Shown piece by piece: positions 14,282-22,932 of a stretch of 22,932 nucleotides of DNA (positions within the stretch are counted from its first letter, which is position 1; every line of letters begins with the position of its first letter). Below the pieces are notes generated by a model, which saw only the letters and a program-made list of their open reading frames with translations, did no database searches and was not told the origin of the DNA. The stretch spans positions 1 to 22,932 of the IMG/VR virus record IMGVR_UViG_3300032293_001257; one strand, 5' to 3'. The translations under genes were made by a program, and so were the position numbers. The stretch comes from a virus.

Positions 14282-14632
14282 TTATATTTCAGCGGAAAAT
14301 GGAGGTGGTGTTGTGGTGGATGAGGGTTTTGAAGGTTTTGTTGGATTTGGAACGATAACTGGTATAAACTCATCAAAACTATCTGAATACATCGGTTTAT
14401 CTTCGTTTTTTGACCGATTAACCTGTACATACCAATCATCGTATTTTTCTGTTTTTAACTTATTTTCTACTTTTACTTTTATGGTGTCTGTTTCTGATGT
14501 TATCTGTACAGACTGCTTTGTATATTCGTAGATAGTTGTGTTGTCTAATGGGATTTTCCTTGTGGAAGGATCTGTAACATCAGATTTTCCTACAAAGTTT
14601 TTTGATTTTTTACCGTCGAATCCTGTTATCAT
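14282..14632 (-). CDS. Small wedge-operon protein with proline-rich tail, unknown
   Basis: This 116-residue gene sits between the gene 7 homologue and gene 8. Its ATG comes one base after the TAA of the upstream gene, with GAGAAG about six bases before it. Residues 1-90 are polar and charged with beta-strand-like stretches (SVQITSETDTIKVKVENKL, 41-59) and a YDDWYVQVNRSK segment (64-75). Residues 91-116 are rich in Pro, Thr and Ser (PVIVPNPTKPSKPSS, then TTTPPP) and are probably disordered. It has no signal peptide, membrane segment or Cys. T4 has no gene between 7 and 8, so this is an insertion relative to T4. Its position suggests a minor baseplate part or an assembly factor that bridges gp7 and gp8. 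I do not recognise a family. Confidence 0.7.
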   Translation of the reverse strand: MITGFDGKKSKNFVGKSDVTDPSTRKIPLDNTTIYEYTKQSVQITSETDTIKVKVENKLKTEKYDDWYVQVNRSKNEDKPMYSDSFDEFIPVIVPNPTKPSKPSSTTTPPPFSAEI

Positions 14633-16302: not shown

Positions 16303-18273
16303 TTATCTTCCTAGAGTTGGTATATTGATAGGAACAGAGTTTGGAAGAGGAGGTAGTGATGGAAGATTTGGCGTAATGTATGGAGAAGGACTTCGTATGG
16401 CCTCTCCTCCTTGAACAACCACTGGACCCTCTGGAATTTGATTCTTTGCACTGAGTACAGCATTGAAATCGGATGTTCCAATCCTGATTAGTCTTTCTAT
16501 CTCTTCCTTTGTGAACGCCTTTGTAGAAATGCTATCGGAAGTTGATGTAATGATCTTGTTTTGCATTGTAAAGATATCATCAGTCAAGGGTTGAACTCTA
16601 ACTTTGATGTGGTCAAGTGTTCCGTAGTTTTCTGGTTTGAATGCAAAGAGAGTAACATTTCCTGTGAGATAGTCGATTTCCCCTGCTTCTTTTACAATGC
16701 TTCTTTTCGCTTCACCTGATCCGCTTACAATTGATATTTTGCCGTTTCCGTCATCCTCTAGAAAACAAGTTTTGGTTGCACCAACACTATTTTTGTAAGA
16801 AAAAGTCGAAGATCTAAAAGACCCCTTGTATCCTTTATATGGGTTAAACACTGGATTGTGGAATTGCAATTGGACAAGTGTTGGATATCTTGTACTTGGC
16901 TTTATTCTTTGCTCTACAAGAGTTTCAAGTCTTGTTCCGAGGATTGCAGAATCCACTTCATCTAGAATTTTGTTTAATTTTGAACCAAAAAATGGAGTAT
17001 CAAATTTCTCTAGAACTGTATCGAAGTACTCTAGAGTTTTAGATTTCTGTAGAGCAGAAATCTCATTTCTGGAAAGAGAGGTCTTTGTTGGATCGAATGT
17101 TGTATTGATGTTGACCACTGCATAGAGATACTGTGGATCTACTATTTCTGGAACAATACCAACAATTGTCTTTGATTTCAGATCCTCAAGTATTGTTTCT
17201 TTTTCTACGGAAGGCAAATACAGTCCTGCATTTGGCTTTATTGAGACAAATACTTTTCCGAATTGTGGAGGATTGTTCTCTTCTCCACCCCATACCTTGA
17301 TACTTTCTGCACGGGGATATACTGTTTGTATAACGCTTTCAAAGTCTCTTGATGTGACTGTGCGATTTTGAGCAACAAACGCCTTTGGCGCATTTCTTCT
17401 AATATCTGTTATATCTTCTGGATCTGCTCCACCAATAGAAGAAGAAACAGTTGATACTGACACTCCTATTTTTGAAAACGAAGCAAAATAATTTCCTGCT
17501 GATCCTGAATTTTGTAGATATTCGATATAAACAATGTTACCGTTTGCAAGATTTGCACCAAGAATTCCGTCTCCAAAATATACCTCGTACTGACCATCAT
17601 ATGCTGCTTGAACAAAGAACACCTTTTCATCTGGACCAAGTTGTGAAAAATCTGTAACTCTTGTCCAAGATTCTGTGTCATCGGTTGCTGCCGTTTCGCT
17701 CTGTCGAATCTTTACTCTTATTGTCGAAACATCGGCATCCGCTGGTACAAGAAATTTATGTTCTCTTTTTCTTGCATCGTGAACATAGGTCAGAGTTTGA
17801 AGAATACCTTCATATACTGAAGCATTGTTGACTCTCCAATCGTTTACTCCATACTCTTCATACTCGTAGTCCTCTAGGAATGTAAAGATTTTGGTTACTG
17901 CCTGGTTGTTTTCGTTTACATAAGAACCTGATATATACTCTCCTCTGTTTATAGTTCCAGAAGAGGTTTTTGTGAGATTTATTATAGCCTTCGCTGATGT
18001 TTGTGATCGTGGAAGATAGTTGAGGAGTTTCGCATGGGATATGATGGAATCTCTTCTTGATGCGCTATCAAGAAACATCTCATTTCCAACCATGCTTGCA
18101 TAAAAAGCCATATAGTGGGTATTATATGCAAGTATGTCCATAAGAATATTAAGAGAGGAGCCTTCAAAATCATATCCATTGAACTTTTGTTTTGAGCGAA
18201 GATATTCAATAAAATTGCTCTTTATTTGAGCAAAATCCAATTGTGTTATATTGACAAAGTTGTCGTTAGCCAT
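16303..18273 (-). CDS. 6: Baseplate wedge protein gp6 (J-like)
   Basis: gp6 forms the inner ring of the contractile baseplate and is related to P2 gpJ. At 656 residues this matches T4 gp6 (660). The signature is residues 36-90: FEGSSLNILMDILAYNTHYM, then ASMVGNEMFLDSASRRDSII, then the KLLNYLPRS end. FGDGILG (233-239) and the RRNAPKAFVAQNRTVTSRDF segment (292-311) with GKVFVSIKP (339-347) are the conserved baseplate-J core. The last 30 residues are unusually Pro/Ile-rich (SPSPYITPNLPSLPPLP) and probably extended. The ATG is one base after the gene 25 stop, with GAGG about 11 bases upstream. The 25-6-7 order means that the conserved triangular wedge core is encoded in one block. Confidence 0.95.
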   Translation of the reverse strand: MANDNFVNITQLDFAQIKSNFIEYLRSKQKFNGYDFEGSSLNILMDILAYNTHYMAFYASMVGNEMFLDSASRRDSIISHAKLLNYLPRSQTSAKAIINLTKTSSGTINRGEYISGSYVNENNQAVTKIFTFLEDYEYEEYGVNDWRVNNASVYEGILQTLTYVHDARKREHKFLVPADADVSTIRVKIRQSETAATDDTESWTRVTDFSQLGPDEKVFFVQAAYDGQYEVYFGDGILGANLANGNIVYIEYLQNSGSAGNYFASFSKIGVSVSTVSSSIGGADPEDITDIRRNAPKAFVAQNRTVTSRDFESVIQTVYPRAESIKVWGGEENNPPQFGKVFVSIKPNAGLYLPSVEKETILEDLKSKTIVGIVPEIVDPQYLYAVVNINTTFDPTKTSLSRNEISALQKSKTLEYFDTVLEKFDTPFFGSKLNKILDEVDSAILGTRLETLVEQRIKPSTRYPTLVQLQFHNPVFNPYKGYKGSFRSSTFSYKNSVGATKTCFLEDDGNGKISIVSGSGEAKRSIVKEAGEIDYLTGNVTLFAFKPENYGTLDHIKVRVQPLTDDIFTMQNKIITSTSDSISTKAFTKEEIERLIRIGTSDFNAVLSAKNQIPEGPVVVQGGEAIRSPSPYITPNLPSLPPLPNSVPINIPTLGR

Positions 18274-18274
18274 T

Positions 18275-18670
18275 TTACTTCAGCCTCTCTATTGGTAAGA
18301 ATATCTCCACAGTTTCGAAATTAGGCATCTTTTTGATTCTATATTTTACAGACACTTCATATTTATTATCTTCTGGTGATGCTTTTACTAATACTTCAAT
18401 ATCTTCTATTCTTGTTTCATAAGTTTCTAGAAGATTTTTGATATCAATACGCATTGACGCTGCACTAACTCGGTCAATAGGCTCAAAGAGCAATCCATAG
18501 AGAGGAGAGGCAATTTCTCGGTTGAATGGTTTATCAAATGGGGCAAGTTTGACAAGATTCTTTATTGACTGCTTTACCGCTGTTTCATCTGAAACAGTTG
18601 CAATATCTCCTGTTAGAGGGTGCTTTTTAAAAGAAAGGTCTATATCACGATATATAAAGGATGTACTCAT
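18275..18670 (-). CDS. 25: Baseplate wedge protein gp25 (lysozyme-like fold family)
   Basis: gp25 joins the wedge to the sheath and is one of the most conserved parts of contractile injection systems. This copy has 131 residues, the normal length (T4 gp25 has 132). The family pattern is clear. It has a YRDIDLSFKKHPLTGDIAT start (7-25), SIKNLVKLAPFDKPFNREI (35-53), SPLYGLLFEPID (55-66), a helix through LLETYETRIEDIEVL (80-94) and a final beta strand IEIFLPIE-like (here VEIFLPIE). The ATG overlaps the TAA of the upstream gene as TAATG. In T4 gene 25 lies elsewhere in the tail gene cluster, with 53 and 26. Here it is immediately before gene 6. Confidence 0.95.
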   Translation of the reverse strand: MSTSFIYRDIDLSFKKHPLTGDIATVSDETAVKQSIKNLVKLAPFDKPFNREIASPLYGLLFEPIDRVSAASMRIDIKNLLETYETRIEDIEVLVKASPEDNKYEVSVKYRIKKMPNFETVEIFLPIERLK

Positions 18671-19305
18671 TATCCGCCTCTTTTCTTTGTTGTACTAAGC
18701 AGATACTGTATGCTGTTTCTTATCTTTACAAATTTATCTTCGAATTTAGTCTCTTCAACTTTATCTGCAAAAGACCAGCCACACCATTCGCATAGAATAC
18801 ATCCAACTTGCCCTCCACGGGTATTTCGAATAGGCAAAAGAGAAATCATAAGAACATGATTTGACTGTAGATATGACTTGAAATATGAATCTTTCATATT
18901 GCTGACAACAATAAGGGTAGATTTATCGTTTTCTAATATTTCAAGCATATCCACGAATAGAGAAAGCATCTGATCGGTGTTTCCCTTAAATGTCGGAACC
19001 ATTCCTGGATGGCAGGATTCGTGGGTCATCGACATCTTTTTCATAGAGTTTCCATTCGCAAAACTGCTACCATTGTGGTACTGAAACAGTTTTGTTCGGC
19101 ACGAGTCTGCATCATGGCGCAGTTCTGATAGTAATTCTTGGATATTTCTATCCAAATGCATCTCTTTTTGTTGCTTGGATTTTGACCACTCTTGCTGTAT
19201 CTTTTGTACTATTGGGCGAATCATGCCATACCAGCCTATGACTCCTCCACCTAAAATAGCAGAAATCGTTGAACCCAATTCAAACCAAGATTTCATATCG
19301 CTCAT
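18670..19305 (-). CDS. Membrane-anchored protein with GAF-like domain, unknown
   Basis: This 211-residue protein lies between the PAAR-like gene (ATGA overlap) and gene 25 (TAATG overlap). Residues 10-31 (LGSTISAILGGGVIGWYG region) form one probable membrane helix, followed by a polar, probably helical linker (KIQQEWSKSKQQKEMHLD) and a domain from about residue 52. This domain has LRHDADSCRTKLFQYHNGSS (62-81) and MSMTHESCHPG (91-101). Then comes MISLLPIRNTRGGQVGCIL (153-171) and a closing helix (190-204). The pattern of hydrophobic strand, turn, Gly-hydrophobic strand and C-terminal helix fits a GAF fold, a small-molecule or sensor domain. Cys69, Cys98, Cys169, Cys172 and Cys175 stand out. 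The last three form CILCEWC, which could bind a metal or cofactor. The membrane helix has no cleavage site, so the domain is likely cytoplasmic. I do not know its function. The fold is inferred by eye. Confidence 0.7.
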   Translation of the reverse strand: MSDMKSWFELGSTISAILGGGVIGWYGMIRPIVQKIQQEWSKSKQQKEMHLDRNIQELLSELRHDADSCRTKLFQYHNGSSFANGNSMKKMSMTHESCHPGMVPTFKGNTDQMLSLFVDMLEILENDKSTLIVVSNMKDSYFKSYLQSNHVLMISLLPIRNTRGGQVGCILCEWCGWSFADKVEETKFEDKFVKIRNSIQYLLSTTKKRGG

Positions 19306-19589
19306 CTGGAAACCCCATATTTTCCTCCGATATCACCATTGATACTGCCTCCACGGGAATGGAGATCTTTCACTGGGTTTCCATTAATGGTGAATCTTGA
19401 TCCTAGATCTGCACCTAAAACCACGGTGCTCCCGTCAGCCTTTCTAACGGTAGTGGCAGAAGACAGAACAGGGGAACCATTGGCTGTGTGGCGTTCAGAG
19501 AGCAATCCAGTAATTGTAGAAATTGCTCTTTTTCCGTTTTGGTCTTTATAGACGAATAGATCGCCTGATTTTCCTACAGGTGTTCCCAT
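19302..19589 (-). CDS. PAAR-like spike-tip protein candidate
   Basis: This small gene (95 residues) begins MGTPVGKSGD. I chose this ATG over one six codons upstream because GGAGGG (19600-19595) is spaced five bases before it. PAAR proteins cap the tip of the central spike and often begin with a Met-Gly-x-Pro-Val/Ala-x-x-x-Gly-Asp motif, as here. Near the middle are HTANGSPVLSSATTVRKADG and a later FTINGNPVKDLHSRGG, which resemble the ING-x-PV steps of PAAR repeats. T4 has its PAAR gene, 5.4, just upstream of gene 6. This one lies two genes upstream of gene 6. Its short length and its overlap with the next gene fit a compact virion part. The usual His/Cys metal ligands are not obvious: only two His and no Cys are visible, so this remains tentative. 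Confidence 0.5.
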   Translation of the reverse strand: MGTPVGKSGDLFVYKDQNGKRAISTITGLLSERHTANGSPVLSSATTVRKADGSTVVLGADLGSRFTINGNPVKDLHSRGGSINGDIGGKYGVSR

Positions 19590-19594
19590 GCATA

Positions 19595-19600
19595 CCCTCC
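19595..19600 (-). promoter_or_regulatory. Ribosome binding site that decides the PAAR-like start
   Basis: GGAGGG on the minus strand lies five bases before the ATG at 19589. The in-frame ATG at 19607 lies upstream of this site and has no comparable match before it, so the downstream ATG is preferred. Confidence 0.7.
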
Positions 19601-19607
19601 ATTCCAT

Positions 19608-20464: not shown

Positions 20465-22932
20465 TTAGAACTCCAGTGTAACACTTAATTCATTAGGATT
20501 TCCACTAACACCAGCAATAGTTAACCAAACGAAACTTGATGCAGATATTGTTCCATTGTTGAACGATGTTGTGCTCAAACCTGTGGTTGTATTTGTACAA
20601 TTTATACCGCTAGTAACAACTTCTGTTCCTGTTGCTGATCTGTCTGTGCCGTATCTAACACTGAATGTTACTCCTGTTCCTGCACCTCTTATAACTGATT
20701 CTATGTTCGAAAGGGTTAGTGCATTTGATGTATAGAACATGGTAATGTTGTCTGTGGTGGTTGGAGCATATACAGATATGGATCTTCCAAGTTTGACCGA
20801 ACCAGTTAGGCCATTTACTGATGAGACACCGACAACTGCACCTGTTAGTCCATTGAATGAAGATACAACTTGAACAGCACCTGTGGCTCCATTTACGGAT
20901 GAAACACCCTGAACAGCACCTGTTAGCCCATTGAATGAGGATACACCAGATGAACTACTAGAAACAGTACCCCAATAGAGTTGTCCACCTCCATCAGTGA
21001 GCATTGCCTGTCCGCTAGTTCCATTTGAAGCAGGGAATGTATAACCCCAAGATGATGGAGCGTAAATATCATCATAATCACCATCAGATATTTGTAATGC
21101 TTGTGTGATTAAAAATGTTCTTTGGATTCCAGTAAAAATGTAATATGGAGAACCACCATTATATTCAAAACCATACGCTACAACTGTATTTACATTCGTT
21201 CCATCTGTATTGAATATAGTACCCGTCGTAGCATCTAATTTAACTTGATTTGGTGAAGAAGTAGCATCAAATGATCTTGCAGAAACTGTTCCAGATGATG
21301 CGACATATGATAGTGGTGTTGTAACATTGTCAACCAACAGGCTTTGTTCACCAGCAGTTGCGGCGAAGACGAGATATCTTGTGGCACTGCTATTTGTGCT
21401 GCCAATTATCACTGTACTTGCACTCAATCCTGTGATATCACCAGTCTTTCCATTTACAGAAGAAACACCGACGACTGCTCCTGTTGAGCCATTGAATGAA
21501 AGAACACCTGTATTGAAAATGGAGTAGGCATCTCCAGAACTATCTACTACTATTTTTGTGCCAGTCCCTGATTGAACTGTGACGGTATCTGCGCTTAAAT
21601 CTGCTTGTATAAGTGGAGTTCCCTCAACTGCTCCTCCGGTTGCAGTGAACACCATTGAGAGGAATGTGTTTGCTGCTTGGTTTGTGATAGTAAAGGCATC
21701 ACCAGCACTATTTCCTGTGAGGAGAATTCCTGCTCCCGCATTTATTGTAAGGGTATCTGCTGTTCCTGTTGCATAAAGATCTGTATCAGCAGATTGAGAA
21801 CCACCATTTGTTGATAGTAAAATTCTAGTGAAAGCACCAGCAGGAACAGAAATTGCACCTGTAGCACCGTTTACAGAAGAGACAGCGGTAACAGCACCTG
21901 TAAGACCATTTACAGAAGAGACAACCGCTTTGGTCAGCGCAACTGTTCCGCTATCGTTTGGTAGTGTAATGGTTCTGTCTGCTGTTGGCTCGGCAACAGT
22001 TAATGTTGTTTCAAAACCATCACTAGCAGAAGAACCATCAAAGATGATATTGCTTGAAAACTCAATTGGTCCTAATCCTCCATCAACTGATTTTGTTTTA
22101 AGTCGTAAATCTGCACCAGAAATGCGAATCTCATTTGCACTGTTTGGAATTGTTAGATTAGGAAGTTCATACAATAGTGTATTTACATCCAAAGGAGTCA
22201 ATACGATATTGCCATATGGCTTGATAAGAACATCTTTGTTTCCACCGGCTATGTTTGACGCAGTTTTAACGCTTAGTGTACCTCCACCAGAGTAAATCTC
22301 TGAATTGCTACCAAAAGCAAGTGAAGCACCGGATGGCAAAGATAGTGTATTTACAGATGGATTGTATGTGAAAGTCTCTTCGCTATCGTAATAAACCGAA
22401 GACTGCGATACTCCTGACACAATTAATCCTACTACGAAGTCACTATTACTCGAAGAAGATACCGTTCTTACACTGTAAGCCTGAATATTTGTTGCAGATG
22501 TTAGACCTGTGACTCTTCCATATTGATCTACAGTTACTACTGGTATCACTGATGCTGAACCAGTTGTTCCAGAGATAACACCAGAAGCCTCTAATGATAA
22601 AGATAAAGTTTTACCAGATATCTCTTTATCCTCATTTATTCCAGTTCCGCCAACTATAGAAATAGTTCCAGTTATACCATTAATAGAAATTACATAATCA
22701 CCAACTGGTCCTGTGACACCTTGGATACCTTGAGATCCTGTAGCACCTGTTGGACCAGTGACACCTTGAATACCTTGAGATCCTGTAGCACCTGTAGCAC
22801 CAGTGACACCTTGGATTCCTTGAATACCTTGGATTCCTTGGATACCTTGAGATCCTGTAGCACCAGTGACACCTTGGATTCCTTGGATACCTTGAGATCC
22901 TGTAGCACCTGTTGGACCAGTGACACCTTGGA
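20465..22932 (-). CDS. Large tail fibre with collagen-like and SSVNG repeats, N-terminus beyond window
   Basis: The frame is open from the window edge to TAA at 20465, giving 821 visible residues. A GTG at 22549 is not the real start because the same frame continues upstream without a stop. Visible residues 2-79 are 26 uninterrupted Gly-X-Y triplets ([16 protein letters not shown] type). Nine 13-residue repeats of the [10 protein letters not shown] kind follow in groups of one, two, two and four. Between them are beta-rich spacers. One holds [14 protein letters not shown] (around visible residue 322), a common fibre motif. The last 100 residues, from about [12 protein letters not shown] to NELSVTLEF, form a probable C-terminal beta domain. 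The composition is that of a long, trimeric fibre shaft with a terminal head. Two small genes follow it closely. I infer a receptor-binding or side-fibre role. Confidence 0.8.
20786..20941 (-). repeat. Four tandem 13-residue repeats in the fibre
   Basis: Four consecutive 39-base units encode [39 protein letters not shown] and [13 protein letters not shown]. They are the last and longest cluster of this motif and lead straight into the C-terminal domain. Phe and Val alternate at position 3 of each unit. Confidence 0.85.
21425..21502 (-). repeat. Two tandem 13-residue repeats in the fibre
   Basis: Two 39-base units encode [13 protein letters not shown] and [13 protein letters not shown], the same pattern as the four-unit cluster. 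They repeat its Phe-then-Val alternation at position 3. Confidence 0.8.
21842..21919 (-). repeat. Two tandem 13-residue repeats in the fibre
   Basis: Two 39-base units encode [13 protein letters not shown] and [13 protein letters not shown]. They follow the [11 protein letters not shown] motif and precede a beta-rich spacer. Confidence 0.8.
22652..22690 (-). repeat. Single diverged 13-residue repeat next to the collagen-like region
   Basis: One unit, [13 protein letters not shown], keeps the NG-x-TG core and begins one residue after the last Gly-X-Y triplet. It joins the collagen-like segment to the repeat-bearing shaft. Confidence 0.6.
22694..22932 (-). repeat. Collagen-like Gly-X-Y repeat region
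   Basis: Twenty-six consecutive triplets are visible and the array continues past the window edge. The commonest triplets are GIQ, GVT, GAT and GSQ, with a few GPT and one GPV. The last triplet is GDY. Pro is rare, as in bacterial and phage collagen-like proteins, which lack hydroxyproline. The DNA copies are almost identical over blocks such as the [10 protein letters not shown] unit, which would allow copy-number change by slippage. Such segments form stiff trimeric rods in phage fibres. Confidence 0.9.

Follow-up and report, generated by a model that had tools for sequence, protein, structure and literature searches.

In the window (the whole stretch of DNA analysed here, 22,932 nucleotides of the IMG/VR virus record IMGVR_UViG_3300032293_001257), a gene embedded in the baseplate wedge operon of a T4-like phage, which we call gene X (18670-19305, minus strand), encodes a 211-residue membrane-anchored protein with a GAF fold. 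For the family to which this protein belongs, a lysis-control role resembling that of the T4 holin T is the best-supported reading, and we give roughly an even chance to the proposition that the gene X protein is itself a T-holin-related membrane protein that controls lysis and helps to set its timing. A lysis-timing role is more likely than one in building the baseplate. This reading supplies a testable function for a phage family listed as unknown in PHROGs and points to a GAF-type sensor fold in the regulatory domain of T4 T, the best-studied of the lysis-inhibition holins. Lysis timing in many phages could, if this is true, depend on a small-molecule or redox sensor.

Counterparts 52-99% identical to the open reading frame of gene X occur in seven further contigs, and it therefore represents a real gene. 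As the earlier note had described, it is locked between two neighbours on the minus strand: its start overlaps the stop of the gene at 19302-19607 (ATGA), and its own stop overlaps the start of the gene encoding the baseplate wedge protein gp25 (18275-18670; PF04965, PHROG 261) in a TAATG sequence. Gene 25 is followed by a gp6-like wedge gene (16303-18273, minus strand; PHROG 219, PF21379) and then by genes for more wedge proteins, and judging from the overlaps gene X would be co-produced with wedge proteins. The designation of the upstream neighbour as PAAR-like holds by position, but less so by sequence: the gene has no Pfam PAAR match and a weak PAAR profile match (E 0.006), and it sits where true PAAR genes are found in Methylophilales phage Melnitz, Pelagibacter phage HTVC008M and Nitratidesulfovibrio phage SRB7757. 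The gene X protein itself (the window protein) has no match in Pfam (E up to 1), NCBIfam or PADLOC, and its PHROG matches are confined to PHROGs that carry no functional annotation, with no tail or baseplate family among them.

Two further features of the surrounding region were observed. A small ORF of 93-116 residues lies between wedge genes (14282-14632), and its counterparts in two relatives (L007 5882-7591 and L142 5731-7425) are proteins of 564-569 residues that begin in a similar way but have gained a large additional domain, in the manner of an anchor with exchangeable cargo. A tail-fibre-like repeat protein (20465-22549) is mosaic when compared with that of an otherwise nearly identical phage (L002 459-2489), the ends being alike and the middle different.

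Taken at face value, the operon position of gene X could mean that its product is a virion or baseplate component, or a tether of assembly to the membrane. In the window clade, whose members are 52-99% identical and include two contigs (L004 and L005) that encode the same protein, gene X always separates the PAAR-position gene from gene 25 (7/7 IMG/VR contigs), and in most of these contigs its start and stop codons overlap its neighbours. This slot is nevertheless empty in HTVC008M and SRB7757 and is occupied in Melnitz by an SNase-like gene and a small ORF (intervals compared: L137:3665-4988, L138:4241-5001 and L139:4306-5000), so wedge assembly does not require gene X; the PAAR-gene 25 slot in T4-like phages is a variable insertion slot. 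Homologues beyond the clade are mostly outside tail operons, and the window protein, as stated above, matches no tail family. The linkage to gene 25 on which the earlier note had put weight is constant within the clade but not outside it, where more distant homologues lie away from gene 25; this agrees in part with the note's own refuting condition of homologues scattered relative to gene 25. A structural role, or the assembly tether suggested in the note, is unsupported. We regard a virion, baseplate or tethering function as very improbable, and a wedge role for gene X was set aside on the grounds that the slot is empty or differently filled in other phages. One family member (L079:3894-4568) is located among tail genes, beside a Phage_tail_2 tube gene, and represents a second tail-module case.

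An AlphaFold2 model of the gene X protein, computed from a 48-member alignment of the family (A5), has a mean pLDDT of 93. A single long helix (residues 2-66; 19108-19302, minus strand) comprises the membrane segment and a connecting helix, and is followed by strands at residues 70-81 and 87-98, by helices, by strands at 153-160 and 166-174, and by a C-terminal helix. In a Foldseek search of the PDB, the best matches were phytochrome and cyanobacteriochrome GAF domains (PF01590; for example 6oaq, 6mgh and 8k9o) with E values from 1e-7, which confirms the GAF fold proposed earlier and assigns it to residues 69-207 (18685-19101, minus strand). Unlike those GAF domains, the window protein is membrane-anchored, has no output domain and carries an HNG signature. 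The periplasmic domain of T4 holin T (6psk_T) ranks 33rd (E 9.9e-6, TM 0.71 by target) and is the sole phage protein among the best 50 PDB matches, and a Foldseek search of BFVD returned phage GAF proteins without functional annotation together with three annotated holins, from Proteus phages phiP4-3 and Stubb and Serratia phage PS2. At the sequence level, PF01590 is matched by 29 of the 48 family members at E up to 0.1 (best 3e-7); the window protein matches neither PF01590 nor PF13185, and a direct PDB sequence search with the family profile yielded weak GAF matches only (E 0.026).

The relative L022, whose gene is endolysin-adjacent, was modelled as well and possesses the same fold with a separate N-terminal helix at residues 2-13; its best 50 PDB matches are GAF domains and GAF-containing sensor proteins, and T is absent from them. 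As modelled, the gene X family is by fold equally close to generic GAF domains and to T. The C-terminal domain of T4 holin T (6psk_T) itself appears GAF-like by fold; Pfam gives no GAF match for this domain, and a search of open-literature full text for holin and GAF found no paper describing it as GAF-like.

The gene X family comprises 106 loci in IMG/VR and the named phages searched, 50 of them non-redundant after removal of loci at least 90% identical. It is phage-restricted; no relative came up in either of two scans, which require short exact motifs, across 84,980 genomes of bacteria and archaea. A peptidoglycan hydrolase is encoded within three genes of the GAF gene in 24 of the 29 non-redundant loci of clusters 0, 4 and 5, the largest groups of the family, which derive mostly from marine and flavobacterial-type phages plus Leptospira phage LE1; these loci are related and hence do not amount to 29 independent events. 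The type of hydrolase varies (M15_3, M15_4, Amidase_2, GH24, CHAP/TIGR02594, M23) while the GAF gene is constant. Several of these cassettes additionally encode a PHROG 3427 holin or small membrane proteins; where another holin is present, the GAF protein is not necessarily the one that serves as holin. The same arrangement is seen in members of PHROGs 14038, 30125 and 38864, which have no annotated function and match in sequence at E 7e-11, 2e-5 and 4e-3: the gene directly precedes an M23 endolysin in Leptospira phage LE1 and an M15 endolysin in Nonlabens phage P12024S, whereas in the window clade it resides in the baseplate operon. Among the three functions that the earlier note had floated, it is lysis timing, and not the tether, that gains real support, from these endolysin-adjacent relatives and from the fold shared with T4 holin T.

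The remaining 21 non-redundant loci have no endolysin link in the stretch seen and are distributed among the window clade (6), a PhoH-linked clade (4), a DnaJ/ClpB-linked clade (7) and singletons (4). The PhoH- and DnaJ/ClpB-linked clades, which lie away from lysis genes, count against a lysis role. In the window-clade contigs neither an endolysin (GH24, Amidase_2, M15_3) nor a holin was found; all of these contigs are structural-module fragments, and endolysin searches in this clade are therefore uninformative.

To compare the family with holin T by sequence, its 48-member profile was aligned using hhalign with that of a T family enlarged by members from T5-like and Vibrio phages, which gave a probability of 90.8% and an E value of 1.2e-6 over 138 columns. 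Restricted to the domain, the score was 34.6; 200 column shuffles reached no more than 21.8, and nine unrelated families compared with the T domain no more than 16.0. This link emerged only with 48 family members and the wider T family, a first profile comparison with 20 family members having been not significant. The window clade alone has no significant similarity to the T profile, and its link to T thus runs through the family as a whole. Aligned family and T positions include G85/G132, K90/K137, G101/G148, P158/P176, G168/G186 and W174/W192, the T residues of these pairs being conserved or even invariant across the T family. Of all parts of the gene X family, the DnaJ-linked clade, adjacent to DnaJ/ClpB and sugar-transferase genes (L114, L115, L124-L127, L129), resembles T most: its alignment with T extends from end to end (204 columns, E 2.9e-4) and takes in the N-terminal amphipathic helix. 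Among T5-like and Vibrio phages, annotated T-type holin genes stand directly before the endolysin in Salmonella phage Sepoy, Klebsiella phage K32PH164C1 and Vibrio phage Dax, as do many family members, and T4 gene t (L010:4222-4878) adjoins tail-fibre genes and so provides a precedent for a holin gene in a structural cluster.

A narrow version of the lysis-control reading would make the gene X protein a true T-type (class III; PF11031; PDB 6psk, 6px4, 6pxe) pore-forming oligomeric holin that has diverged in the window clade. Like T, the protein is about 210-220 residues long and combines one N-terminal membrane helix, a connecting helix that resembles the 'bridge helix' of T4 T (PMC12162936), and the same C-terminal fold, and the full-length alignment of the DnaJ-linked clade points the same way. 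All T relatives match PF11031, however, and the window protein does not. It also lacks the N-terminal amphipathic helix that is essential for pores in T4 (PMC12162936): the tail ahead of the membrane segment, about 9-12 residues long, is just that short in 4 of 6 window-clade members, and in the window protein it has a low hydrophobic moment and no strong amphipathic helix.

Predicted topology separates the two proteins further. The one N-terminal membrane helix that had been proposed was recovered as a single hydrophobic segment at residues about 10-32 (residues 10-31, 19213-19278, minus strand, on the boundaries of the earlier note), weak by Kyte-Doolittle hydropathy in the window protein (1.22) and clear in most relatives (1.6-2.3). 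Lysine and arginine residues in the window clade average 1.2 before this helix and 6.5 within 20 residues after it, a charge pattern that predicts a cytoplasmic GAF domain. The pattern is reversed in T and in the DnaJ-linked clade, and the C-domain of T4 T is periplasmic, where it binds the antiholin RI (PMC11413866). Failing these T-defining features, the window protein is not filed as a T holin; pore-former status is not claimed for it, the amphipathic helix being missing, and we consider a true T-type holin rather unlikely.

The broader lysis-control reading can be stated as follows. The gene X protein would be an inner-membrane protein whose one N-terminal helix runs on rigidly into the GAF-fold domain, and late in infection it would help to set the time of lysis from the host inner membrane. 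It might do so as a holin or, slightly likelier in the window clade, by switching the lysis machinery through its membrane-tethered GAF domain; such a switch would act on another holin. Placement in the baseplate operon would just supply late expression, and the protein would not be part of the wedge.

Closer examination of the 48-member alignment reveals a conserved polar signature, R-HNG-S-E-G, in the GAF-fold domain. R70 is found in 47/48 members; H77-N78-G79, within FQYHNG (residues 74-79; 19069-19086, minus strand), is invariant (48/48); and the segment KMSMTHESCHPG (residues 90-101; 19003-19038, minus strand) contains S92 (S or T in 48/48), E96 (47/48) and G101 (48/48). A second motif, CILCEWC (residues 169-175; 18781-18801, minus strand), was, like FQYHNG, correctly positioned in the earlier note. 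Its cysteines, C169, C172 and C175, are invariant in the window clade together with C69 and C98, and C69, C169 and C172 are nearly or wholly clade-specific. Neither the polar signature (R70, H77-N78-G79, S92, E96 and G101) nor these clade-specific cysteines are features of T.

Such conservation makes ligand sensing by gene X possible and bears on a reading unrelated to lysis, according to which the protein is a membrane-tethered sensor or effector whose cytoplasmic GAF domain is a binding site for a small molecule or metal and either changes the physiology of the host or counteracts a defence signal. The signature residues suggest a ligand or active site, the clade-invariant cysteines fit a cytoplasmic metal or redox site, the charge pattern would put the domain in the cytoplasm, and neither the PhoH- nor the DnaJ-linked clade is located in lysis cassettes. 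Outside those clades, on the other hand, most non-redundant family loci are endolysin-linked; the protein matches no signalling or defence family (none in PADLOC), and an output domain is absent. On balance a sensor unconnected with lysis seems unlikely, if less so than a true T-type holin.

An extension of the lysis-control reading would join T and this large unannotated phage family in one superfamily of membrane-tethered GAF proteins, of which the window clade would be an inverted form, with a cytoplasmic GAF domain through which an internal ligand or redox state gates lysis and with its gene in the baseplate operon; we hold this fuller scheme to be doubtful. Among divergent family members, two (L012:5938-6654 and L123:5890-6687) contain cysteine-rich insertions, CGDCPNIVK and CPVCPFKTKC, that resemble small metal-binding loops, and the L012 member is followed by a subtilase gene.
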